This document shows, piece after piece, positions 2-58,839 of a stretch of DNA of 64,000 nt. This stretch comes from Halostella salina. Lineage in GTDB: Archaea; Halobacteriota; Halobacteria; Halobacteriales; Natronoarchaeaceae. Numbering within the stretch: the stretch's first letter is position 1; each line of letters opens with the position of its first letter. The translations under genes were made by a program, and so were the position numbers. The stretch is taken from NCBI RefSeq assembly GCF_003675855.1, contig NZ_RCIH01000002.1:62001-126000 (forward strand), in the 5' to 3' direction. Below the pieces are notes generated by a model. The model did not search any database. It saw nothing but the letters and a program-made list of their open reading frames with translations, and was not told the origin of the DNA.

Positions 2-1843
2 AGCCAGGGGGAGTACGACGCCGCCCGCGAGGTCGTCGGTGATGACTACTCCGACCGACTCGGGCAGCTCGTCGACGTGGCAGGCGAGACCAGCGGCGGT
101 GGGGGCGACGGGGGTGATGGGGGCGGTGGCGGCGACGATAACCAGAACGACAGCGCCTCGTTCGACCGCGCACAGGAGGAGCAAGCGGAGTACGTCTCCG
201 AGGTACAGGAGTACCGCGAGACGCGGGACCGATACGAGGCGGCCAAGGAGCGTGGTAACGAGACGGAGGCGCGGCGGGCCGCACGTCGGCTGGACCGGAT
301 CGCACAGAACGTGACGGCCACCGGTTCCGAGCTGACCGACGAGTACGAAGCGATCACGAACCGGACCGACGCCGATCTCACGGCGGAGATCCGGACCGTC
401 GGGAACATCAGCGCGAACGTCAGCCGGACACAGTCGGCGATCCGGACAGCGGAGTTCATCGAGACGCGGCTAACGATCACTGCCCGGACGAGCGAGATCA
501 CGTTCCTGAACCCGCTCGAAGTGACCGGTCGACTGACCGACGCCAACGGGTCGGCGCTGGCGAATCGGACGGTCGCAGTTCGGCTGGGGAGCCGGACGCA
601 ACTGACGACGACGAACGCGACCGGGTACGTCACCGCGTCGTTCAGACCGACGGTCCAGCCGCTCGGCGAGGGGAACGCCACCGTTCGGTACGTTCCGGAG
701 CCGGACTCGATCTATCTCGGCGACGCCACGTCGGTCCCCGTCGAGGTCGACCAGGTCACGCCGACGGTGACGCTCGACGAAACGCCGTCGACGACCGCCT
801 ACGACGAGCAGATCACCGTCTCCGGGTCGGTGGCGGCCGAGTCGGTGCCCGCGGCCGGCGTCCCAGTCGCTATCAGGCTCGGTGATACCCGACTCGGAAC
901 GGTTCGCACGGACGGTGACGGGGAGTTCACCTTCAGCGCGCGGACTCCGGCAGCAATTCCGACAGGAACGGCAGCACTCAACGCCTCGATACCGGTTCGG
1001 AACCGGGCACTCGCAGCCACGGGCACCGGGACGGAAGTGACAGTCGAGGAGACGGACGCATCGCTGACGGTCGCAGCCTCACAGGACGGAGCGGACGCCG
1101 TTCGGGCGACTGGCAGACTCACCGCGAACGGAACGCCCGTTTCGAACCAGCGCATCGAACTCCGCGTCAACGGGACTGTTGTAGAGACGGTACAGACGGA
1201 CGCTAACGGGCAGTACAATGCATCACTGGCGGTACCAGCGTCGATAGCAGACACGGGTGGAGCCGTCGAGGTCACTGCAGTCTACGCTACTGAGCGGACG
1301 AACCTCGACGATGCGAGTGCTCGGACAGCCATTGTGCTTCCGACTCCCGCCGAGGTGGCGGACGAGCAGCCGCTGTGGCAGGACTGGCGGGTCCGTGGCG
1401 GTATTGGCGTTGTTGGACTGCTCGTCCTCAGCGGCGCGGCGTACTGGTGGCGACGGCGTCGGCAAGAATCGGTCCCCGAGGAGGACGGGTCGTCGCAGTC
1501 GGATAGCGCTCCCGGCGATACCGACATCCCGGAGGACGAGGGTGACGAAGCGTTCCCGACAGATGTAATCACGAGCGACGTGCTTGAGAACGGACAGCCT
1601 GATCGTGCGGTCGAACTGGCCTACAGCGATGTTCGCCGGCGGATCTCGGACGCCCTCGATGTGCCGTCCGTCCGAACGCACTGGGAGTTCTATCAGGCCT
1701 GTCGGGATGCAGGACTCGATACGGAAGGAGTCAAAGCACTCGAACGGCTGACTGAAGCGTACGAACAAGCGGCGTACGCACCCGAAGAACTCTCGATCGC
1801 AGAAGCCGACGAGGCGCTTGAAGCCGTTGATGCAGTCAGGTGA
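2..1843 (+). CDS. DUF4129-type membrane-anchored protein, 5 prime end missing
   Basis: The frame is open from the window edge, so the first 613 residues or so seen here are a C-terminal part. After a Gly/Asp-rich linker (residues ~28-45) and a charged helical stretch come several beta-rich Ig-like or carboxypeptidase-regulatory-like repeats (about residues 160-440), then one transmembrane helix (GGIGVVGLLVLSGAAYWW) followed by an Arg-rich stop-transfer. The last ~90 residues form a cytoplasmic DUF4129 domain with the typical core RTHWEFYQACRDAGL. In haloarchaea this family usually sits next to MoxR ATPase, DUF58 and transglutaminase genes. Those would be upstream, outside the window. Topology suggests a large extracellular domain and a small cytoplasmic tail. 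The precise function is unknown; the family call is confident, the role is not. Confidence 0.8.
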   Translation, partial: SQGEYDAAREVVGDDYSDRLGQLVDVAGETSGGGGDGGDGGGGGDDNQNDSASFDRAQEEQAEYVSEVQEYRETRDRYEAAKERGNETEARRAARRLDRIAQNVTATGSELTDEYEAITNRTDADLTAEIRTVGNISANVSRTQSAIRTAEFIETRLTITARTSEITFLNPLEVTGRLTDANGSALANRTVAVRLGSRTQLTTTNATGYVTASFRPTVQPLGEGNATVRYVPEPDSIYLGDATSVPVEVDQVTPTVTLDETPSTTAYDEQITVSGSVAAESVPAAGVPVAIRLGDTRLGTVRTDGDGEFTFSARTPAAIPTGTAALNASIPVRNRALAATGTGTEVTVEETDASLTVAASQDGADAVRATGRLTANGTPVSNQRIELRVNGTVVETVQTDANGQYNASLAVPASIADTGGAVEVTAVYATERTNLDDASARTAIVLPTPAEVADEQPLWQDWRVRGGIGVVGLLVLSGAAYWWRRRRQESVPEEDGSSQSDSAPGDTDIPEDEGDEAFPTDVITSDVLENGQPDRAVELAYSDVRRRISDALDVPSVRTHWEFYQACRDAGLDTEGVKALERLTEAYEQAAYAPEELSIAEADEALEAVDAVR

Positions 1844-48661: not shown

Positions 48662-49894
48662 TCAGCGAACGCCGAACCCGAAGACTGGCATGCCGAGCAC
48701 CGGGCCCCACAGGAAGTGGAGCCCGATGCCGACCACGAGCGCGGGCACGGTCGTGTACACGGTCGCCACGATGGCGGCCTTCTTGTCGATGGCCAGCAGC
48801 GGGAACAGCGCGTCGCCGTCCTGGCTGATGGCGTTTGCCGTCAGCGCCGAGAACGGGAGGCTGCCCTCCGCGTAGACGGTCGAGAGGACGATCTGGGGGC
48901 CACAGCCCGGAATGAGGCCGACGACGGCCCCCGCGATGGGCGCGAGCACGCCCGCGGCAGCGGCGAGCGACGCGATGTCCGCGCCCGTCAGGAGCAGGCC
49001 GTACTCGTAGATCAGGTACGCACCGAGCACCCAGACCGTGACGAAACTCGTTTCCATGGCCGCGTGGACCAGCGTGTCGTACGCGGAGGCAAAGGAGTCG
49101 CGCGCCCGGCCGACGCTCCCCTCGCCGACGTAGTGGCGGCCGACCGCGTAGAGGTACAGCGACAGGAGCGATCCGGCGAGGCCGATGACGGTGAACGCGC
49201 CGGCGAACGTCGCCCCGAGCGCCAGCGGCACGTCGGGCGCGCCCCGGAGGAGGTAGGTGACCCCCAGCGTCAGCGCCGCGGCGGCCGCGAGCCACCAGGC
49301 GACGTGGGCCGCGTGCGAGAGCGGCGTGAGGACGGCTGAGCGGCGGTCCGGCCCCTCGTCGTGGACGTGCGTCGGCGGGTCGGTGGGGTACTCGTGGGTC
49401 GGGTTCGGAACGGGGTTGGGGCCCGCCCCGTGGACGACGCTCCCGCCGTCAGTCGTCGCGGGAGATATCCGCGCGACGGCCGCGTCGACCCGCTCGACGC
49501 CGACGCCGAACGCGTCGATCAGGTAGCCCGTCGCCACCGCGGCGACAAAGGCGATGCCGTAGGCGTACAGCGCCGCCTCCGGCGCGAGCGCGATGATGAC
49601 GAACGCGGCGTCGCCCGCCGTCGCGGCCAGCGTCGCGACGACGGTGCCGAAGCTGACCGTCCCGCGGACGTACAGCGGCATCATCACGATCGCGCCGCCA
49701 CAGCCGGGCGTCAGCCCCAGCAGCGCGCCGAACAGCGGCTGGCCCCGCTCGTGCTCCTCGACGTAGCGAAGCAGCGCGCCGCCGGTCCAGTACTGCGCCA
49801 GTCCGAACAGCAACACCGTCACGGCGACGAAGGCGCTGACCTGCACGTAGCCGTCCCGGAGGGAGGTGACCAGCACCTCGACCGCTTCATTCAC
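48662..49894 (-). CDS. Putative manganese/arsenic-type exporter permease
   Basis: A 410-residue polytopic protein with two homologous halves. Each carries the hallmark of the putative manganese-transporter/arsenic-efflux family: LGLTPGCGGAIVMMPLYVRG with GTVVATLAATAGDAAFVIIA in the first half, and VGLIPGCGPQIVLSTVYAEG with LTANAISQDGDALFPLLAID in the second. The Cys-Gly pairs and conserved Asp in both halves suggest a pseudo-symmetric transporter. A His/Asp-rich loop (EYPTDPPTHVHDEGPDRR) connects them and could bind metal. The start is GTG at 49894. A palindrome upstream (49921-49936) suggests metal-dependent control. The substrate, manganese or another cation or oxyanion, is inferred from family names only. 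Confidence 0.8.
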   Translation of the reverse strand: MNEAVEVLVTSLRDGYVQVSAFVAVTVLLFGLAQYWTGGALLRYVEEHERGQPLFGALLGLTPGCGGAIVMMPLYVRGTVSFGTVVATLAATAGDAAFVIIALAPEAALYAYGIAFVAAVATGYLIDAFGVGVERVDAAVARISPATTDGGSVVHGAGPNPVPNPTHEYPTDPPTHVHDEGPDRRSAVLTPLSHAAHVAWWLAAAAALTLGVTYLLRGAPDVPLALGATFAGAFTVIGLAGSLLSLYLYAVGRHYVGEGSVGRARDSFASAYDTLVHAAMETSFVTVWVLGAYLIYEYGLLLTGADIASLAAAAGVLAPIAGAVVGLIPGCGPQIVLSTVYAEGSLPFSALTANAISQDGDALFPLLAIDKKAAIVATVYTTVPALVVGIGLHFLWGPVLGMPVFGFGVR

Positions 49895-50055: not shown

Positions 50056-50592
50056 CTACCCGAGGAGGTAGCGGAGCTTCGGCCGCTGTTGCACGAACTC
50101 GGTCGCCTCGAGGTAGGCGTCCACGCCGAGGAACCGGCCCGCGGCGAACGTCCCGATGAGGACGAACATCAGGAGGCCGAGCAGGTCGCCGTTGACGTAG
50201 CCGTGGGCCCAGTCGGCGTTCCCGAGGTAGAACAGGGTCATGAGGACCCCGCCGAAGAACGCCGCCAGCCGGGTGAGCGCCCCGACGATCAGCCCGAGGC
50301 CGATGAGGAACTCACCGACCGGGATCATGAAGTTGGTGAACTCCAGGAGCCACGGGGTCTCGGCGACGAAGGCCAGCAGCCCGGCGATGGGGCTCCCGCC
50401 GGCGTTCGCCAGGTAGCCCTCCGCGCTGAACGGCGTGCCCGCGACGAACGCGAACTTCGTCCAGCCGGACATGAGGAACCAGTACCCCACCACCAGCCGG
50501 ACCAGCACCGTCACGTAGCCGGCGACCGACCCCGCGTATTCGAACTCCTGTTCCCGCCCGAGCCAGTCGACGGTTGCTTCGTTGGTTGCCAT
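50056..50592 (-). CDS. DoxX-family membrane protein
   Basis: A 178-residue DoxX family protein with four helices: VTVLVRLVVGYWFLMSGWTK, then GLLAFVAETPWLLEFTNFMI, PVGEFLIGLGLIVGALTRLA and LMFVLIGTFAAGRFLGVDAY. The conserved WTKF at the end of the first helix and the GE in the third are family marks. The start ATG at 50592 has a Shine-Dalgarno-like GAGGTGA on the minus strand eight to ten nt ahead, unlike the leaderless genes around it. DoxX proteins have links to thiosulfate:quinone oxidoreductase and redox stress; the role here is unknown. Confidence 0.85.
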   Translation of the reverse strand: MATNEATVDWLGREQEFEYAGSVAGYVTVLVRLVVGYWFLMSGWTKFAFVAGTPFSAEGYLANAGGSPIAGLLAFVAETPWLLEFTNFMIPVGEFLIGLGLIVGALTRLAAFFGGVLMTLFYLGNADWAHGYVNGDLLGLLMFVLIGTFAAGRFLGVDAYLEATEFVQQRPKLRYLLG

Positions 50593-50687
50593 AGCGGTCA
50601 CCTCACATGCGAAGTTTGGCGGGACTATCACTTATACCGGGAGACCGATTCCCAGCTCCTGAGAACATGTTCCCCCGGAGATTAACC

Positions 50688-51797
50688 TCAGATGGGTGAA
50701 ACCGGGCGGACCGCGGACCCGCTACGGCGGCGGTCAGCGTCCCCGTCGCCGGAGTCGGTGACGGTGAGCCACAGGTAGACGGTCCGGTAGGCGTTTCCGA
50801 CCGTCGGGTCGTCCGGGGCGTCGCCCCTGTACAGCAGGTAGGCGAGGCGGACGCGCTCGCCCGCGAACGGCGGCGACACGGTGTGCTGTCGCCGCCACGT
50901 CCCGTCCGAGTCCAGCCGGGGCGTGTAGCGGTGGAGCACGGTCCGCTCCACGACGCGGCCCCCGGCCGGGCCGGGACGCGACGCCCTCGCCGTCACCCGC
51001 TCGTCGGCCGTCCCGTTCCCTCTCGCGACGCGCTGCAGTTGCACGACGACCGTGTAGTCGGTCGCCGTTCCTTCTCGGTTTCGGACGCCGAGCGTGAGGT
51101 CGCGCTCCGAGCCGACACTGACGTTCCGCGGGTAGCCGTCGGCGACGAGGGCACCGGACTCGTTCTCGGTCACGAGGTACAGTTCCGTGTACCCGCCGTC
51201 GTCCGACGGGGCGAGCGCCGCGACGCCGACGCCGGCGAGCGCCAGGACGACCGCGGCGGCGAGCACGAGGTCGAGCGCCGTCCAGTCCCGACCCGTTCGG
51301 TCGACGGCGTCGGCGGACGCCGCGGGTCCGCGCGACGGCGGGTCGGGACGGACGCGCCCGGGGAGCCGCGACCGACGGACCGCCGCGTAGCCCGTCACGC
51401 CGACCGTCACGGCGGTCAGGCCGGCGACCAGCGGGAACAGCCGCACGCCGACGGGCGTGAACGTGAGCGCGATGCCGAGCGCGGCGGCGACGAGCGCGCT
51501 CGTCACGACGGCGAGCGCGATGCGTACGGCCGCCGTCGGCCTGCCGGCGTCGGCGTCGTCGCTCGCTCCCCCGCCCGACGGCCGCGGGAACAGCGCGGTG
51601 ACGACGGCGTACCCCGGCACGAACAGGACGAAGACGAGCCCGAACACCGGGCGCGCGGGCGTCCCGTTCAGCCCCGGCACCAGCACGAACAGGTCGGCGG
51701 CGGCCGTCAGGGCGAGGACCGCGATCAGGTCCGCACCGAGCCGCCGCTGGAGCTCGGCGAGCCGCGCGCCGCCGCCGGGTCGCGTGGGGCGTGTCAT
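50688..51797 (-). CDS. DUF1616 membrane protein
   Basis: A 369-residue protein with four N-terminal helices (AVLALTAAADLFVLVPGLNG, VFGLVFVLFVPGYAVVTALF, AVVTSALVAAALGIALTFTP, LVAGLTAVTVGVTGYAAVRR), a further helix (LDLVLAAAVVLALAGVGVAA) and a ~150-residue external beta domain (YTELYLVTENESGALVADGY, ERDLTLGVRNREGTATDYTV, RHTVSPPFAGERVRL). DUF1616 is an archaeal and bacterial family near surface-assembly genes; function unknown. It is the last gene of the FtsX/GT-C/ABC operon, seven nt after the ATPase stop. Confidence 0.82.
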   Translation of the reverse strand: MTRPTRPGGGARLAELQRRLGADLIAVLALTAAADLFVLVPGLNGTPARPVFGLVFVLFVPGYAVVTALFPRPSGGGASDDADAGRPTAAVRIALAVVTSALVAAALGIALTFTPVGVRLFPLVAGLTAVTVGVTGYAAVRRSRLPGRVRPDPPSRGPAASADAVDRTGRDWTALDLVLAAAVVLALAGVGVAALAPSDDGGYTELYLVTENESGALVADGYPRNVSVGSERDLTLGVRNREGTATDYTVVVQLQRVARGNGTADERVTARASRPGPAGGRVVERTVLHRYTPRLDSDGTWRRQHTVSPPFAGERVRLAYLLYRGDAPDDPTVGNAYRTVYLWLTVTDSGDGDADRRRSGSAVRPVSPI

Positions 51798-51804
51798 GGG
51801 TGGA

Positions 51805-52467
51805 TCAGTCCGGTGTGAGGGAGCCGTCCGCGAGCGTGAACCGGCGGTCGAACGACCCCGCGAGTCGCGGGTCGTGGCTCACCAGCAAGACCGCCGTGTC
51901 GAACGTCTCGTGGACGGTGAACAGGGTGTCCAGCACGTCGTCGGTCGTCTCGGGGTCCAGCTGGCCGGTCGGTTCGTCGGCGAGGACGACGCTCGGCCGG
52001 TTGGCGAGCGCGCGTGCGATGGCGACCCGCTGGCGCTCGCCGCCGGACAGCGCCGGCGGCCGCCTGTCGGCAAGCGGGGTGATCCCGAGCCGGTCGAACA
52101 GCGTGTCGAGCCACGCCTCGTCCACGTCGCCGGCGTGTTCCTGCGGGACGCGCGCGTTCTCGTAGGCCGTGAGGTCGTCGATGAGCCGGAACCCCTGGAA
52201 CACGAACCCGAGGTGGTCGCGCCGCAGCGCGGCGCGTTCGCGTTCGGACGCCGCGGTCGCGTCGGTCCCCCGGACCTCGACGGTCCCGCTGTCCGGCGCG
52301 GTGAGCAGGCCCAGCACCTCGAACAGCGTCGACTTCCCGGCCCCGCTCGCGCCGCGGACGAGCAGCCGGGCGTCGGGCGGCACCGCGACCGAAACGCCGT
52401 CGAGGACGCGCCGGTCGCCGCGGGCGAGCGTCACGTCGCGGGCGGCCAGCACGGGGGCGTCGCTCAC
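51805..52467 (-). CDS. ABC transporter ATPase (MacB/LolD type)
   Basis: A 220-residue ABC ATPase of the MacB/LolD/FtsE kind. Walker A is LVRGASGAGKSTLFEVLGLL, the Q-loop is LGFVFQGFRLIDDLTAYEN, the signature is ALSGGERQRVAIARALANRP, Walker B is VVLADEPTGQLDPET, and the H-loop is LLVSHDPRLAG. GTG at 52467 is used because it overlaps the previous stop by 4 nt. It should drive the FtsX-type permease two genes upstream. Translationally coupled in one operon. Confidence 0.92.
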   Translation of the reverse strand: MSDAPVLAARDVTLARGDRRVLDGVSVAVPPDARLLVRGASGAGKSTLFEVLGLLTAPDSGTVEVRGTDATAASERERAALRRDHLGFVFQGFRLIDDLTAYENARVPQEHAGDVDEAWLDTLFDRLGITPLADRRPPALSGGERQRVAIARALANRPSVVLADEPTGQLDPETTDDVLDTLFTVHETFDTAVLLVSHDPRLAGSFDRRFTLADGSLTPD

Positions 52468-54089
52468 GGGCCACCCCCCGGGAGCCCCGCGTCGCACCGG
52501 CCCGGCTCCCACCGCAGGACGATAGACGAGTCGGCTCCGCCGGCGTACACCACGTCGCCCGTCATCACCCACTCGTCGTAGGCCGACCGGGAAATGTCGA
52601 GCGGTTCGGTGGGACCGGGCGCGCCGACGGTCTTCCACGAACTCCGGGCGACGACTGGGCAGTCGGGCGGCGGCGCGTCGCCCCGGAGCCAGGCGGTCGT
52701 CGGCAGGTCGGTCACGCCGGCACCGCGGTAGTTGTACGCGACGAGCGCGACGTGGTCGTCGCTCGTCCAGCCGCCGTCGACGCGGTCCGTGGCGAACGTC
52801 GCCGCGTCGAGTTCGGCGGGGTCGGTGACGGGCTCGAACGGGAACGCCGCCAGCCCGGCGAAGGGGAGCGGGGCCGAGACGAGCACGGCGACGACGGCCG
52901 CCGCGGCGGCGACGCGCCCGAACGCCGGCCGCCGGCGGACCAGCACGGCGAGGCCGACCGCCGCGGCGACGACCAGCCCCGGGTGGACGAACGTCACCGA
53001 CCTGACGACCAGGTCCTCGTACACCGGCGTCCGGCCGGCCGTGAGCGCGAACCCGACCGCCGCGAGCGGGCCGAGGACGAGCGCGAACATCGCGAGACCC
53101 CGGTCGGAGGCGAGGCGGGACAGACCGACCCCGGCGGCGGCGAGCACGACGACCAGCGGCAGGGTCAGCGTCAGGAGCAGCGACGACGTCGTCGCGGTCC
53201 CCGGGTAGACCGCGACCGCCGCGTTCAGCACGAAGACGGCCACGCCAGCGCCGAAGACCGCGACCGCCGCGCCGCGCCGGACGGCGGCGGAGGCGGTGTC
53301 GAGCCACCTGGCCAGCGCGACGACGAGCACCACCCACGCGAGGAACAGCCCGAGCGAGGCGGAGACGCTGCCGGCCTTCGGGAGGTCGGCGGCCGCGTAG
53401 TAGCCGAACGTCAGCAGCCAGAAGCCGGCCGTCCCGAGCGCCCCGTACGCGAGCCGCCGCGTCGTGGGCCGCCGTGCGACCCCGAGAGCGACCAGCGTCG
53501 TCCCGACGAGCCCGGCGACGAACGCGCTCAGGCTGTGGACGACCGGCACCGTGACGGCCAGGGCCGCGGTCAGCGCGAGCCAGCGGCGGCGCTCCGTCCG
53601 CAGCGTCCGGCCGAGCGCGAGAGCGAGGCAGGCGACGACCGCCAGCCCGAACACCTCCGCGTTGACCGACATCGACCGGAACAGGTAGGGCCCCTCGACG
53701 GCCAGGGCGAGCCCCGCGAACGCGGCCGCGCCGCGCCGGACGGGGGCCGAAAAGTCGGCCGCGAGCGAGCGGGCGTACGCCATCGCGACCAGCGAGGGGA
53801 CGGTCGCCAGACAGGCGACGAGCGCCTGGGCCACGTACAGCGGGGCGACCCCCGTGACCTCGCTCACGACCGCGAGCAGCGTCGCGAACAGGTACTCGTC
53901 GGGTGCCGGCGCGGCCGGGCCGGCCAGCGCGACGCCGTCGGTCGCGAGGATCCGCTCCGCGCTGCTCACGAAGACGAACCCGTCGGTGTTGAACGGCAGC
54001 GGCGAGGCGTACAGCGACGAGAGGCGGGTCGCCGCGCCGACCGCGAGGACGGCCACAACCAGCAGCCAGTCGGGGCGGCGTCGGCTCAT
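52464..54089 (-). CDS. Large polytopic membrane protein, GT-C-like
   Basis: A 541-residue protein with about 12 helices and a ~120-residue C-terminal soluble domain. The first external loop SPLPFNTDGFVFVSSAERIL with an Asp after the first helix, and the next loop PAPDEYLFATLLAVVSEVTG, have the layout of GT-C glycosyltransferases (GT39/STT3 relatives), whose catalytic acid sits in the first loop. The tail (TSDDHVALVAYNYRGAGVTD, RSSWKTVGAPGPTEPLDISR) is typical of nothing I know. Lipid-linked sugar transfer is a guess from fold. It lies between the FtsX permease and ABC ATPase genes, coupled to both by 4-nt overlaps. Confidence 0.68.
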   Translation of the reverse strand: MSRRRPDWLLVVAVLAVGAATRLSSLYASPLPFNTDGFVFVSSAERILATDGVALAGPAAPAPDEYLFATLLAVVSEVTGVAPLYVAQALVACLATVPSLVAMAYARSLAADFSAPVRRGAAAFAGLALAVEGPYLFRSMSVNAEVFGLAVVACLALALGRTLRTERRRWLALTAALAVTVPVVHSLSAFVAGLVGTTLVALGVARRPTTRRLAYGALGTAGFWLLTFGYYAAADLPKAGSVSASLGLFLAWVVLVVALARWLDTASAAVRRGAAVAVFGAGVAVFVLNAAVAVYPGTATTSSLLLTLTLPLVVVLAAAGVGLSRLASDRGLAMFALVLGPLAAVGFALTAGRTPVYEDLVVRSVTFVHPGLVVAAAVGLAVLVRRRPAFGRVAAAAAVVAVLVSAPLPFAGLAAFPFEPVTDPAELDAATFATDRVDGGWTSDDHVALVAYNYRGAGVTDLPTTAWLRGDAPPPDCPVVARSSWKTVGAPGPTEPLDISRSAYDEWVMTGDVVYAGGADSSIVLRWEPGRCDAGLPGGGP

Positions 54090-56944
54090 CGCGACCCCCC
54101 GAGCAGCCGCGATGGAGCCACCGAACTGTACCGCCAGGCGACGACGCCCGCGCTGACGAGCGCCAGCGCGAGCGAGCCGAGGGCCAGCGGCCCGACGACG
54201 GAGAGCGGGACGCGGGGGGTCACGCGGACGCCGAACACGGTGAGCGTTCCGACGACGGAGAGCGTCCAGACCGTCGCCGCGGCGAGGGCGATGCTGACCG
54301 CCGCCGCCGGCAGCCCGATCCGGAGCGCGTCGCCGAGCACCAGCCGTCCGATCCGGCGCGGGCCAGCGCCCACCGCCCGGTGGACGCCGATGTCGCCGCG
54401 GCGGGCCTGGACGGCGTCGGCGAACGCCGCGACCGTGCTGCCGACCGTCATCACCACGCCCAGCGCCACGAGCGTCGCCAGCACGAGCCAGAGGTTGCCG
54501 AACACCCGCGAAAGCAGGCCGCCGGCTCCGACCCCGCCGGGAGCCTCGTCGCTCGACGCGACGGCGCTTGCCAGCCGTTCGTCGCCGGTCACGCGGTACG
54601 TCCCCGTCGCTGCCCCGCCGCCGGCGGTCACCTGAACGGTGTACTCGCCGGGCGGGCGTCGGTCGAGCGTCGCCGAGACGGTCCGGTCGCGTCCCGGAGC
54701 CAGTTCCAGCGGTTCCGAGACGGCCACGCCGGGACCGTCGACCGACAGCGTCCGGTCGAGCGACACCCCCCACGGGTTCCTGACGCGGACCCGGACGGAC
54801 GGGGTCGTGAACACGCCCGTCCGGTTCGGCGTCACGAGGCGGACGACGGGCTCGCGCCGCGCCCCGCGCTCGACGCGCAGCGCCTGCGTCGCGGAGCGGT
54901 TCCCCGCCGTGACCCGGACCGCGTACTCGCCGGGCGCGCTCGGCAGCCGGACCCGCGTCCGCCCGTCGTCGCCGACGCGCGCCGTCCGGTCGCCGAGCCG
55001 GACGGTCGCGTTCCCGACGGGCGCGCCGCCCGCCGTTCCGACGCCGACCCGGAGCGTCGCGTTCGGCGGGCCGACCTCGGGGAGCGGGGCGAGCACGAGC
55101 GTGTCGGCCGAGAGGACCCGGACCGTCCGCGTCAGGTCGCCGACCGTCACGACCCGGGTGCCTGCGCCGGGCGCGTCGAACCGGAGTTCGACCGTCCGGC
55201 GCTCGCCCCCGTCGAGCGTGACCCGCTTCGTCCGGCGCTGGTCGCCGAGCGTGGCACGGACCGTCCGCGACGCCGGCCCGGAATCGACGTTCCGGAGGCG
55301 GACCTCGACCGGGACCGTCTCGTCCGTGGCGACCCGCCGCGGCGCGCTCGTCCCGAGCACGACGACGCCCTCGGTCGTGCGGTTCGCGGCGGGCTCGCCG
55401 TAGCGGACGAGGTTCACCGACCCCTCGGGGACGCCCTCGAGGTGCCGCGCGAGCGGGAGGCTGACGAGGAGGTGGTCGTCGCTCGCGCCGTCGGCCGCGA
55501 ACGTGCCGACCACCTCGACGGTGCCGACCGCCGGCGTCGTGCTGCCGCCGAGCGCGAGTTCGTCGCCCGGGGCGAGGCCGTGGGTCCGCGCGAAGGCGGT
55601 CCCGACGGCCGCCTCGTCGGTCGCGTTCGGTGCCCGCCCGTCGACGACGCGGGCGTCGGTCACGGCGCTGTACGCGTCGAACTCCACCCCGCGGGCGGGG
55701 ACCGGCCGGCCGTCGTGGGCCAGGAACAGCAGGATCTCGGGGCTGGCGGCGACGCCGGAGCGCCGGAGCCGGTCGGCGTCCGCCGCCGGGACGTGGCTGT
55801 CGACCGGGTGGACGGCCCCGGGCTCGACGACCATCCCGCCGGACGCGCCGCCCGTGGCGCCGATCCCGCCGACGACGCCGGCCAGCGCGACCACAACGAG
55901 GACGAACGCGGCGAACACCGCGAGCGTGGCCGTCGTCGGGACGGCGGCCCCCGCCGGGAGAAACGATGGGCCGCCCGGCCACCGTCGGGTCGTCGCCGCC
56001 CCGGAGTCGAGCGGCGCGCCGCGAACCGCCGACCGGGCGGCCAGCGCGCCGGCGAGCAGTCCCACGCCGACGAGGGCGAGGAGGACGAGAGGGATCAGGC
56101 CGGCGGCGCGGGGGGTCACGCCCAGCGGGAGCCCGACCGGGAACCCGAGCGTCACGGCGGCGGTGACGGCGGCGTTCGGGACGACGACGCCGACCGCGTA
56201 GCCGAGCGTGACGCCGGCGAGCGTGAGCAGTCCCGCGCGGGCCGTCACGAGCAGGGCGACCCGTCGCCGGCTCGCGCCCGTCGCCCGGAGCACGGCGATC
56301 GACGACCGGCGGTCCCGGACCGTCATCCGGGTCACGCTGAACACGACGACGCCGACGAGCACGGCCACGCCGAGACAGACGACGCCGAGCACGCCGAGCA
56401 TCTGCCGGGTGCCGACGAGGAAGAAGGCGAGCGCGCCGGTGAGCGGCGCGCCCGACGCCGGGACCGGCGACGCCGACGCGCGCAGTGTCAGAGCGCGGTC
56501 GCTCCCCAGCGACGTCGCCGTCCCGGCGTCGGTCACGAGCCACGGGTCCGGGAACGGCGTCTCGCCGCTTCGCTCCCGGACCGTTCGCTCCAGAGTCGCC
56601 CGGTCGCCGACGAGCGTGCCCGTCCCGTTCGACGCCGGCCCGGCGACGCCGTCGGGCGGGTCCATCCCGAACGCGCCGCCCCGCGGGACGCCGACGACCG
56701 TTCGCTGGACGCCGTCGACGGTCGCGGTCGCCAGCGGGAACGTCGTCCCCTCGGCCCCCGTGGTCGTCGTGAGCGACACGGCCGTCTCGGAGCCGTGGTC
56801 GGCCGCCATCACCGTCGTCTGTCCGGAGACAGCGAGCAGGACGACGACTGCACCGACGAGGAAGGCGGCGGTCACGGCGACGACGAGGACGGCGAGGCGG
56901 TCCCGGCCGGACCACCGCACCACGAGCGACTGCCGGTAGCTCAT
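54086..56944 (-). CDS. FtsX-type ABC permease with two FtsX domains and Ig-like ectodomains
   Basis: A 952-residue permease. One N-terminal helix (LAVLVVAVTAAFLVGAVVVL) is followed by an ectodomain and a first FtsX domain, whose cytoplasmic loop reads RRSSIAVLRATGASRRRVAL. Another helix and a ~400-residue ectodomain follow, including Ig-like/CARDB-like units (VEVRLRNVDSGPASRTVRAT, NATVRLGDRTARVGDDGRTR). A second FtsX domain has the loop RRGDIGVHRAVGAGPRRIGR, so the protein carries both halves fused. This is much larger than MacB permeases. It should work with the ATPase at 51805-52467 in export or in pulling on surface components. It leads the operon; the palindrome at 56997-57014 lies 53 nt upstream. 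Confidence 0.87.
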   Translation of the reverse strand: MSYRQSLVVRWSGRDRLAVLVVAVTAAFLVGAVVVLLAVSGQTTVMAADHGSETAVSLTTTTGAEGTTFPLATATVDGVQRTVVGVPRGGAFGMDPPDGVAGPASNGTGTLVGDRATLERTVRERSGETPFPDPWLVTDAGTATSLGSDRALTLRASASPVPASGAPLTGALAFFLVGTRQMLGVLGVVCLGVAVLVGVVVFSVTRMTVRDRRSSIAVLRATGASRRRVALLVTARAGLLTLAGVTLGYAVGVVVPNAAVTAAVTLGFPVGLPLGVTPRAAGLIPLVLLALVGVGLLAGALAARSAVRGAPLDSGAATTRRWPGGPSFLPAGAAVPTTATLAVFAAFVLVVVALAGVVGGIGATGGASGGMVVEPGAVHPVDSHVPAADADRLRRSGVAASPEILLFLAHDGRPVPARGVEFDAYSAVTDARVVDGRAPNATDEAAVGTAFARTHGLAPGDELALGGSTTPAVGTVEVVGTFAADGASDDHLLVSLPLARHLEGVPEGSVNLVRYGEPAANRTTEGVVVLGTSAPRRVATDETVPVEVRLRNVDSGPASRTVRATLGDQRRTKRVTLDGGERRTVELRFDAPGAGTRVVTVGDLTRTVRVLSADTLVLAPLPEVGPPNATLRVGVGTAGGAPVGNATVRLGDRTARVGDDGRTRVRLPSAPGEYAVRVTAGNRSATQALRVERGARREPVVRLVTPNRTGVFTTPSVRVRVRNPWGVSLDRTLSVDGPGVAVSEPLELAPGRDRTVSATLDRRPPGEYTVQVTAGGGAATGTYRVTGDERLASAVASSDEAPGGVGAGGLLSRVFGNLWLVLATLVALGVVMTVGSTVAAFADAVQARRGDIGVHRAVGAGPRRIGRLVLGDALRIGLPAAAVSIALAAATVWTLSVVGTLTVFGVRVTPRVPLSVVGPLALGSLALALVSAGVVAWRYSSVAPSRLLGGSR

Positions 56945-57550: not shown

Positions 57551-57700
57551 ACTACCCCACCCTACTCGCTCACGGCTTCGCCGTTCGCTTCGTTGAGGGT
57601 GGGGCTTTCGCGTGGACTCCCGCTCTGGCCGGAACCCCCGGCAGGAGAGTCATATTCTCCGTTCGCGTTCAACATCCCGCGATTCAGGCGCACGCCTACG
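57551..57700 (-). ncRNA. Candidate omega-RNA (right end of TnpB element)
   Basis: The 3 prime end of tnpB and the sequence just past it fold into a nested hairpin. CCCCACCCT (57555-57563) pairs with AGGGTGGGG (57596-57604), and inside it ACGGC-TTC-GCCGT forms a smaller stem. TnpB systems make a guide RNA from exactly this place: scaffold from the element's right end, guide from the flanking host DNA. Extent into tnpB is estimated. Confidence 0.5.
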
Positions 57701-58839
57701 GGTGCGCCTCCGCCGTCTCCAGTTTGGTTACGGCGGAGATACCGTAGTCCGATGTTTTTCGCCGCGTTGTAGTCGGCGTGGTTCTCGTACCCGCATTTCA
57801 GGCACTCAAAGTCCTCACCTTCGCGGTTGTCTGGGTGGGTGAATCCACACGTTGAACACCGCCACGACGTATTCTCCGGGTCCACCTGCACTACGTCGAT
57901 GCCGTGGAGTTCGGCCTTGTATTCGACGTACTCGTACAACCGCTCAAACGCCCACTTGTGCCCCCACGACGCACCCGAGAGCCGGTCGCGGATGCCGGTC
58001 AACTTCTCGAAGGCGATAACCGTACAGCCGTTTTCGGCGGCTTCTTCGATGATGCCGTTCGTAATCCGGTGGAGCATCATCTTGAACCGCCCCGTCTCTT
58101 TGCGCCCGACCGACTGGATGTTTTCGTGGGCGTGACGCGACCCACACTGCTGGAGTGAGGCCCGCCGCTTCTCGTACTCCCGTCGCCAGTGGTCGAACTC
58201 GTGACCGCTCCAGAACGTACCCATCGACGTGACCGCGAGTTGGTTCACGCCGAGGTCAACGCCGAGGACTGTGCTGTGCCCGGTCGTTGCCTGCTCCGGC
58301 GTGTCGGTCTCCATCTCCGCCTTTGTGCGGAGGTGAAGGAACCACTCGCCGTCCTTGTTGTGGAGTTCCGCTCCCGTCACCTCGTAGTCGTCGTTGTCGA
58401 GATACCGACTGTGAGGTGTGTCGCGATCTGCGTCGGGCAGGACGTACTCAACTTCGATACGTCCGCCCACGGTTGCCAGCGACACGTACTCGTCGTGGAA
58501 TGTCGCACACCGCTTGTCGTAGACGACAGTAGGCTTCGAGAAGTGTGGTTTGCCCGCATACTTGCCCTGTTTCCAGCGGGCGACGACGCTCTGTACGGCG
58601 TCGGCGGCCTTGTTGCGAGCGTTCTGGACGAGATTCGCGTGCAATCGTGTCCGGTCGCGTACCTCGTCGTAGGTTTCCTCCTGCAACTGCGCCTTGCTTG
58701 TGGTTTTGTAGTCGCCCTGCCATGCGTGGTCCACGACGTAGTTGGCGGCCCACAGAAACTCGTCAACAGTTTCGCGGAGAAGTGCGGCATCGTCGCTGTC
58801 CACATCGAGTTTCACCGGGACAGTTCGCCGCATCTCCAT
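57562..58839 (-). CDS. tnpB: TnpB-family RNA-guided nuclease (IS200/IS605, IS1341 type)
   Basis: A 425-residue TnpB. The N-terminal wedge/REC part ([40 protein letters not shown]) precedes the RuvC nuclease. The RuvC acids are Asp in [18 protein letters not shown] (~195), Glu in [16 protein letters not shown] (~278) and Asp in [16 protein letters not shown] (~356). The zinc ribbon is [13 protein letters not shown] with FECLKCGYE. All are intact, so the nuclease may be active. No tnpA is seen nearby, so it depends on a transposase elsewhere. The GC-rich tail [20 protein letters not shown] is typical of haloarchaeal IS1341 proteins. ATG at 58839. Confidence 0.9.

Follow-up and report, generated by a model that had tools for sequence, protein, structure and literature searches.

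A haloarchaeal operon that pairs a tandem FtsX permease with a predicted GT-C-fold membrane protein

Several described systems come close to the one treated here, a four-gene operon in a 64,000-nucleotide (nt) stretch of the genome of Halostella salina (contig NZ_RCIH01000002.1, positions 62,001 to 126,000; below, this whole stretch is called the window). YbbAP-TesA of Escherichia coli is a Type VII ATP-binding cassette (ABC) system that has been proposed to pass lipids from the membrane to an extracytoplasmic enzyme; BceAB-BceS, a Type VII ABC system with a membrane-intrinsic partner, senses antibiotics that sequester undecaprenyl pyrophosphate (both PMC12646458; all papers are cited for the passages of them that were available). 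In Archaea, genes for DUF4350 (arCOG01314), DUF1616 (arCOG02884), MoxR, and vWA proteins have been predicted to specify a secretion or membrane-remodeling complex (Makarova et al. 2015, PMC5898192), and the secretion prediction for arCOG02884 was repeated in a 2019 paper (PMC6393860). The 2015 paper also describes arCOG01994 membrane-remodeling loci, which include a SalXY-family ABC transporter, an AAA+ ATPase, and S-layer proteins, and it places arCOG00563 (HVO_2052), an oligosaccharyltransferase-like distant relative of PMT and STT3, in a glycosylation neighborhood. The arCOG01994 passage names no GT-C protein and the arCOG00563 passage no ABC partner (PMC5898192). The H. salina operon encodes, in order of transcription and all on the minus strand, a tandem FtsX permease, a GT-C-like membrane protein, an ABC ATPase, and a DUF1616 protein (Table 1). 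We regard it as an evenly balanced proposition that this is a Type VII ABC system with a membrane-embedded GT-C glycosyltransferase as its effector. The kinds of parts are known and their combination is new, with a mechanism that we can only propose.

How does the permease compare with those already described? Pfam finds FtsX (PF02687) in two stretches of it (62.7 bits), and the predicted structure (pLDDT 71.5, pTM 0.44), in which about 8 to 9 transmembrane (TM) segments are predicted, is one unit twice over: a TM helix, an ectodomain, and a three-helix FtsX bundle. The best match among solved structures is E. coli YbbAP (Z 21.7, with 478 residues aligned across residues 2-950 at a root mean square deviation [rmsd] of 9.4), and the matches after it, in a comparison for which Foldseek was also run, are BceAB, YtrEF, MacB, and LolC/E. 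The beta-sandwich region resembles CARDB (Z 12.5, 97 residues aligned, rmsd 2.3) and also the C-terminal barrels of transglutaminases. An extracellular domain between the first and second TM helices, a trait of Type VII ABC and MacB permeases, appears in the model as well. By its predicted structure, then, the protein belongs with the Type VII ABC permeases that are built, like YbbP, from a doubled unit, and it is enlarged on the outside. The two FtsX domains and Ig-like ectodomains that an earlier note on this DNA had read from the sequence are both there. That note had also called the protein far larger than MacB. Large it is, and the tandem double FtsX arrangement together with the added Ig-like domains accounts for its size, so no further explanation is needed.

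The likeness to YbbAP-TesA extends beyond the permease. Both systems have a separate LolD-like ATPase, a permease made of two FtsX units in tandem and bearing two ectodomains, and, encoded next door, an enzyme (here a candidate enzyme) as extracytoplasmic partner. TesA, however, is a soluble esterase, whereas the candidate enzyme here is a membrane-embedded GT-C protein, and no profile for a hydrolase, the TesA type of partner, was found by Pfam in any of the four operon proteins. YbbAP also differs in lacking the extra Ig/CARDB-like domains. With BceAB-BceS, as far as it is covered by the source available, the operon shares the pairing of a Type VII ABC with a membrane-embedded partner; BceAB differs in being without the first ectodomain, and its partner is BceS, a sensor kinase, rather than a GT-C protein. 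A further difference from YbbAP lies in the helix count, the 10-helix fold given for YbbAP (in the available part of PMC12646458) exceeding the number of segments predicted here.

What of the 541-residue GT-C-like protein, the only one of the four for which Pfam returns no match (the others giving the two FtsX stretches, an ABC ATPase, and a full-length DUF1616)? It was modeled by AlphaFold2 with 14 relatives from 16 named loci (L095 and L098, cut or broken, were left out), and the model (mean pLDDT 73.7, pTM 0.76) has an array of membrane helices and a poorly resolved C-terminal domain. Its best VIA match is yeast STT3 (8agb_A; Z 21.6, rmsd 5.1, 401 residues). The best 48 VIA matches, all of which we take to be GT-C-fold proteins, include PglB, human STT3, archaeal AglB, Pmt4, ArnT, and arabinosyltransferases, and the next match drops to Z 6.0. 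Foldseek puts the same families on top, with seven chains at E values of 1.5e-4 to 7.9e-4, six of them oligosaccharyltransferase catalytic chains and the seventh ArnT. A GT-C fold with the expected loop acids is what is predicted, in agreement with the earlier note.

The acids themselves were followed through an alignment of the window protein with 36 relatives (31-66% identity). R22, D36, Q88, P182, H185, Y230, R363, W441, W485, and C532 are invariant in all 37 members, an acid is present at positions 143-145 in all 37, C477 is kept in 36, and R138 is kept in 34. D36 lies in the first extracellular loop, by the inferred topology, in the context N-x-D-[G/A]-[F/Y] (with N in 20 of the 37). This resembles the N-D-A-[F/Y]-Y of haloarchaeal AglB, including the AglB of the H. 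salina genome itself. The loop-1 and loop-2 acids, which the earlier note had rightly noticed, we take to be the catalytic acids of the GT-C superfamily. Their retention in 37 of 37 members speaks against the idea that the protein is a non-catalytic scaffold that merely keeps the fold. That idea can point to three GPI transamidase chains among the best 48 VIA matches (Z 13.7 to 14.1), belonging to a subunit that is not known to be a transferase, and we find it very doubtful.

Even less credence, next to none, goes to the label that annotated plasmid records attach to the family. Six of seven plasmid records that match the GT-C family carry the product name "sodium/phosphate symporter," the seventh being without annotation (the mislabeled copies are hits H1 and H3-H7, three of which correspond to loci L107-L109). 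No Na/Pi cotransporter Pfam profile matches any of the 37 members at E 0.1, the predicted fold is GT-C, and the transporters among the best 50 Foldseek matches have a probability of <= 0.23. The symporter label is rejected on the predicted fold, which contradicts it, and on the missing profile.

Is the protein, then, an AglB? It shares with STT3, PglB, and AglB the predicted GT-C fold, a C-terminal ectodomain, and a loop-1 acid in a similar context; it differs in its length of about 540 residues, its small C-terminal domain, its conserved Cys pair, and the missing STT3 profile match. PF02516 (STT3) matches neither the window protein nor any other of the 37 members at E 0.1, and two matches to the STT3 profile lie elsewhere in the H. 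salina genome. Membership in the STT3/AglB family is ruled out by sequence (Pfam and hhalign), and a residue-by-residue mapping onto the catalytic residues of PglB and AglB accordingly failed and is not claimed. YfhO (PF09586) gives a weak match to one of the 37 members (E 0.00018) and none to the window protein. Probably, on the evidence of the model, the protein has the same fold and the same kind of chemistry as AglB while standing outside the STT3 family. Some copies of the gene are split, fragmentary, or remnants (G197 at L076, G338 at L081, G317, G096 at L083, and G313). Stops within the alignment also occur in G037, G403, and G265, where the matches reach the C-terminal end and the stops are probably the genes' own ends.

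The remaining two proteins are more readily named. The ATPase has all of the expected motifs (Walker A, signature, Walker B, and H-loop). Its best NCBIfam profile, among the best 25 of 192 matches, is TIGR02211 (LolD), at 176.4 bits against an equivalog cut-off of 307.75, followed by YbbA; LolD, MacB, and YbbA are among its best PDB matches. The equivalog TIGR02212 reaches 17.9 bits against a cut-off of 362.45, so the scores lie below the cut-offs for LolCDE membership, and none of the four proteins exceeds a curated NCBIfam cut-off (for the ATPase, within the same best 25). ATPase and permease are separate genes, unlike the single chain of MacB. The fourth protein is DUF1616, as the earlier note had named it, matching PF07760 over its whole length (profile positions 1-307 of 307) at 271.9 bits against a cut-off of 31.6. 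A role in anti-phage defense was rejected: PADLOC matches the ATPase only (mad3, mad8, and AriA, taken as generic P-loop matches) and none of the other three.

Table 1. Features of the operon, of its permease, and of the flanking DNA (window coordinates in nt; permease parts in residues)
Feature	Position	Strand	Size	Remarks
FtsX permease gene	54086-56944	minus	952 aa	open reading frame
Permease FtsX unit 1	residues about 170-308			preceded by a TM helix and ectodomain 1; predicted model
Permease ectodomain 2	residues about 387-540			preceded by a TM helix; predicted model
Permease Ig/CARDB-like beta-sandwich domains (about three)	residues about 541-786			predicted model
Permease FtsX unit 2	residues about 807-940			predicted model
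Permease stop/GT-C start overlap	54086-54089	minus	4 nt	
GT-C-like gene	52464-54089	minus	541 aa	open reading frame; Asp36 in loop 1, Arg138 and Glu145 in loop 2, Arg363, Cys477/Cys532 in the C-terminal domain
GT-C stop/ATPase start overlap	52464-52467	minus	4 nt	
ABC ATPase gene, LolD/YbbA/MacB type	51805-52467	minus	220 aa	GTG start; profiles, motifs
DUF1616 (PF07760) membrane protein gene with C-terminal ectodomain	50688-51797	minus	369 aa	profile match
DoxX-family gene	50059-50595			just downstream of DUF1616
ArsP_2-type gene	48665-49894			389.8 bits; 10 TM segments
TnpB/OrfB_IS605-type gene (Cas12f1-like TNB domain)	57562-58839			just upstream of the operon

The operon itself is confirmed as an observation. 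The four genes are as tightly coupled as the earlier note had claimed, the two overlaps being followed by a gap of 7 nt between the ATPase and DUF1616 genes, and GC at the third codon position, counted in frame, is 0.93-0.95 in the permease, ATPase, and DUF1616 genes. Is the arrangement more than a local accident? An even draw of 391 genomes of Halobacteria was searched. The GT-C gene was found in 70 of them at E 0.001 (69 once the weak match in G004 is dropped), and the permease ectodomain was found in 95 at E 0.001, of which the 72 at E 1e-20 were counted. Both occur in 66 genomes, the permease only in 6, the GT-C only in 3, and neither in 316. By genus (n = 86, with labels read by hand) the corresponding figures are 24, 0, 1, and 61. 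These counts treat genomes and genera as independent, which they are not. In a draw from the whole phylum, 11 of 392 genomes matched at E 1e-10: the one that the window comes from and ten others belonging to the same order. The genus richest in GT-C copies, with 15 of the 69 GT-C genomes, is probably Haloarcula, since a uL2 protein from this genus matches the uL2 of PDB 1s72, which we take to be Haloarcula marismortui, at all but 1 of 240 residues.

Gene order was examined at 72 GT-C places, after exclusion of 13 rows (nine second gene pieces, the short fragment G313, and three weak matches) and of permease matches with E > 1e-20 or representing second gene pieces (one G338 piece lies nearer its GT-C gene than the row used). 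At 38 places the permease is upstream on the same strand, its ectodomain match within 1.2 kb; at 14 it is about 2 kb downstream, in the order GT-C, ATPase, permease; one place, G096, has an overlapping remnant, and one further place has a permease 2 kb upstream. For a closer view, 50 regions picked for spread from the 72 places were fetched, and 48 of these plus the window make up 49 loci, in which genes were found by tblastn. L082 (a weak match) and L083 (a remnant), which have no GT-C match at 1e-10, were excluded; two genomes are represented twice, several regions end at contig ends, and the reach is about 8 kb. Of the 30 fetched pairs that are adjacent, 27 have an overlap of 4, 8, or 11 nt between permease stop and GT-C start, and the other three have gaps of 0, 79, and 136 nt. 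The GT-C/ATPase overlap of 4 nt is found in 6 of 19 relatives with an ATPase within 400 nt after the GT-C gene. For these counts a script picked the start codons, looking close to where the aligned proteins begin. Because of the stop-start overlap in 27 of 30 pairs and the genome-by-genome co-occurrence, we consider the operon to be beyond chance.

The trees of the proteins agree to varying degrees with that of the GT-C protein. Distances correlate at 0.85 for the permease (30 pairs), 0.99 for the downstream-type permease (9 pairs), 0.75 for the ATPase (29), and 0.50 for DUF1616 (21), and none of 299 shuffles reached any of these values, though shared ancestry remains as a source of them. Of the 49 loci, 42 contain a permease, 30 have an ATPase close by, and 22 have a DUF1616 gene. 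DUF1616 and the ATPase are thus often not found nearby, which rules out the four genes as an obligate unit. The conserved core is the permease and the GT-C protein, in part of the class Halobacteria. The earlier note had proposed a four-gene machine, which overstates the case; relatives of the block do occur across the class, and it is this two-gene core, not the four together, that is conserved. Ten tree loci (L040, L043-L046, L052, L061, L062, L065, and L069) carry two full-length permease genes, one upstream of the GT-C gene and the other after the ATPase or on the far side. All ten second permeases share one branch, which also takes in permeases from loci that have just one: five loci where it is downstream, and L055 and L070, where it is upstream. 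With midpoint rooting, the clade of the window, whose loci likewise have one permease, comes out next to this branch. Possibly the two permeases at such loci share one ATPase.

These gene arrangements bear on a simpler account, in which the operon encodes a conventional Type VII system like LolCDE or MacB, exporting a surface molecule or extracting it as a lipid, and the GT-C protein acts separately on the same molecule, with no direct coupling to ATP. The MacB/Lol-type ATPase and the FtsX signals would suit it. So would the second permease paralogue, usually beside the ATPase, at the ten loci just described, and so would the 18 of 72 places at which GT-C and permease stand apart, which imply that contact is not obligatory in every species. 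The retained overlap of permease stop and GT-C start argues the other way, as does the fact that at two-permease loci one specific permease travels with the GT-C gene. We judge this exporter account somewhat unlikely.

Several observations weigh against the effector reading itself, a Type VII ABC system serving a GT-C glycosyltransferase. The permease model is middling, with its pTM of 0.44 and its rmsd of 9.4 to YbbAP. The GT-C-like model is likewise middling, with a C-terminal domain mostly below pLDDT 65 and Foldseek TM-scores of about 0.3-0.5 at rmsd > 9. Aligned by hhalign with haloarchaeal AglB, the GT-C-like family reaches a probability of <= 1.4%, so there is no profile similarity and the case for catalysis rests on the fold and the conserved acids. 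The 18 separated places break down into 10 where one contig carries both genes at a distance of 4 to 86 kb, 5 with the permease on another contig (among them G286, where a permease start lies on the same 4.3-kb contig), and 3 with no permease at E 1e-20. The tree agreement and co-occurrence partly reflect shared ancestry. Finally, the window locus is without any of the tested sugar or MoxR-cluster genes in 19 kb.

What surrounds the genes in relatives? Two contexts recur among the 49 loci. At least two of the MoxR-, DUF58-, DUF4350-, and DUF4129-type genes are present in 16 loci (DUF4350 in 13 and MoxR in 13), and at least one of five sugar-gene families (GT2, GT4, epimerase, nucleotidyltransferase, and GlmS) is present in 20, with GT2 in 8. 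Both contexts meet in 3 loci, and neither is seen in 16, the window included. Pfam backs the names MoxR, DUF58, DUF4350, and GT2; for DUF4129 the score stays under the cut-off, and the epimerase, GT4, nucleotidyltransferase, and GlmS names were read from the sequences by eye. The haloarchaeal cluster that recurs beside the module consists of MoxR, DUF58, DUF4350, a 91-aa membrane protein, and a protein of about 700 aa that is Ig-like in parts and matches DUF4129 weakly (L038, L039, L055, L057-L060, L064, L066, L072, L075, and others). A full set is found in a single run on a Haladaptatus caseinilyticus plasmid, which reads GT4, methyltransferase, DUF1616, permease, GT-C, small protein, DUF4350, MoxR, two unnamed genes, DUF58, a large unnamed protein, and GT2. 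On a Haladaptatus halobius plasmid, sulfatases, a flippase, and several glycosyltransferases adjoin the permease/GT-C pair. The GT-C copy of a Natrononativus plasmid has no family permease within 14 kb and no listed glycosyltransferase. At L049 and L076, very large proteins (about 1944-2201 aa) are encoded downstream of the GT-C gene; in the corresponding genomes, G294 and G197, no family permease was found at E 1e-20.

The first of these contexts brings the operon near the predicted arCOG01314/arCOG02884 system, with which it shares DUF1616 and, in the relatives at those 16 loci, the neighboring DUF4350, MoxR, and DUF58 genes. It differs in that the published table, in the part available of PMC5898192, has no ABC permease, ABC ATPase, or GT-C protein. 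Around the window operon, DUF4350 and MoxR are absent from the 19 kb, and DUF1616 is the only member present. DUF1616 proteins are also known from Haloferax volcanii, where HVO_2173 is a DUF1616 glycoprotein in a cluster of five N-glycoproteins (PMC8241124) and where the region hvo_2160-2173, which holds the ABC transporter HVO_2163, has been tied to cell shape (PMC10869688). In the passages available, that region shares with the operon a DUF1616 protein and an ABC transporter.

The second context suggests a polysaccharide or glycolipid pathway. In such a pathway the GT-C protein would add sugar to an exopolysaccharide or lipid-linked unit on the outside, and the ABC system, in a BceAB-like way, would free or clear the finished chain or spent dolichol phosphate. 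In its favor are the genes of the GT2, GT4, epimerase, and nucleotidyltransferase families that surround relatives, the sulfatase, flippase, and glycosyltransferase genes beside the Haladaptatus copy, and Haloarcula hispanica, in which dolichol-phosphate-glucuronate feeds an exopolysaccharide (PMC9943897, available in part). The 16 loci with neither context, the window among them, speak against it. So does the permease, which is of the FtsX type and not of the Wzm type, the known permease type for polysaccharide export. We consider this pathway unlikely. As for the functions that the earlier note had put forward, the export or glycosylation of lipoproteins or the remodeling of the S-layer, they find no support; the neighbors in relatives point to sugar genes and the MoxR-DUF58-DUF4350 cluster. 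That note's interpretation as a whole is partly supported.

How did the operon come to be in H. salina? Its GC content is 76.5%, versus 60.4% for the rest of the window, and the nearest flanks are intermediate (65-71% toward 44-50 kb, 60-64% in the stretch at 57-59 kb). A permease and a real GT-C match are absent from all four other sampled genomes of the genus, G004 giving one weak GT-C hit that is to another protein. The GC contrast and this absence suggest horizontal gain, which we regard as likely. The closest relatives (51-67% identity) are in other families, and those with names include Halosimplex, Halarchaeum, Halorubrum, and Halomarina. A viral origin was also considered; of 16 pattern matches in viral contigs, none was confirmed as a relative. 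A TnpB/OrfB_IS605-type gene lies just upstream of the operon (Table 1). On the other side is a DoxX-family gene, and the same sequence cluster is found near the permease in L035 and L036. Beyond it is a gene for a putative metal or arsenic exporter of the ArsP_2 type.

What might the operon do? From the observed gene structure, predicted folds, conserved acids, co-occurrence, gene overlaps, and neighborhoods of relatives, we infer a physical complex, its catalysis, its donor and acceptor, and the direction of its coupling as follows. (i) A dimer of the ATPase would drive the tandem permease, moving its extracellular domains by mechanotransmission. (ii) The moving ectodomains would bring the GT-C protein a substrate that sits in the membrane, be it a lipid-anchored acceptor or a sugar linked to dolichol; alternatively, movement of the permease may switch the GT-C protein on and off. 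(iii) Relying on Asp36 and the loop-2 acid, the GT-C protein would transfer a sugar to a glycan, glycolipid, or protein at the cell surface. The donor would be a dolichol-phosphate or dolichol-pyrophosphate carrier, a dolichol-linked sugar being what the protein should use because of its fold. (iv) DUF1616, and in relatives DUF4350, MoxR, and DUF58 as well, may be ectodomain adaptors or assembly factors.

Overall, we put forward tentatively, at somewhat less than an even balance, that this is an ATP-powered glycosyltransferase, a Type VII ABC system with glycosyl transfer by an oligosaccharyltransferase-like GT-C enzyme as its output, in which surface glycosylation is gated or fueled by ATP hydrolysis inside the cell. 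Archaeal surface glycosylation is generally regarded as independent of ATP at the outer face. If the proposal is true, intracellular ATP would control extracellular sugar transfer, a link that is undescribed in the literature searched. Nor does the full-text literature searched, a scope outside which most subscription papers lie, describe the pairing of permease and GT-C protein in the parts available, which agrees with the earlier note's view of the combination as previously undescribed. A family annotated as a phosphate symporter would become a candidate enzyme. In Haloarcula hispanica, for which gene deletion is published, the authors call the exopolysaccharide pathway unknown, and for that pathway the GT-C family may offer a candidate outer-face transferase (PMC9943897, in the passages available).

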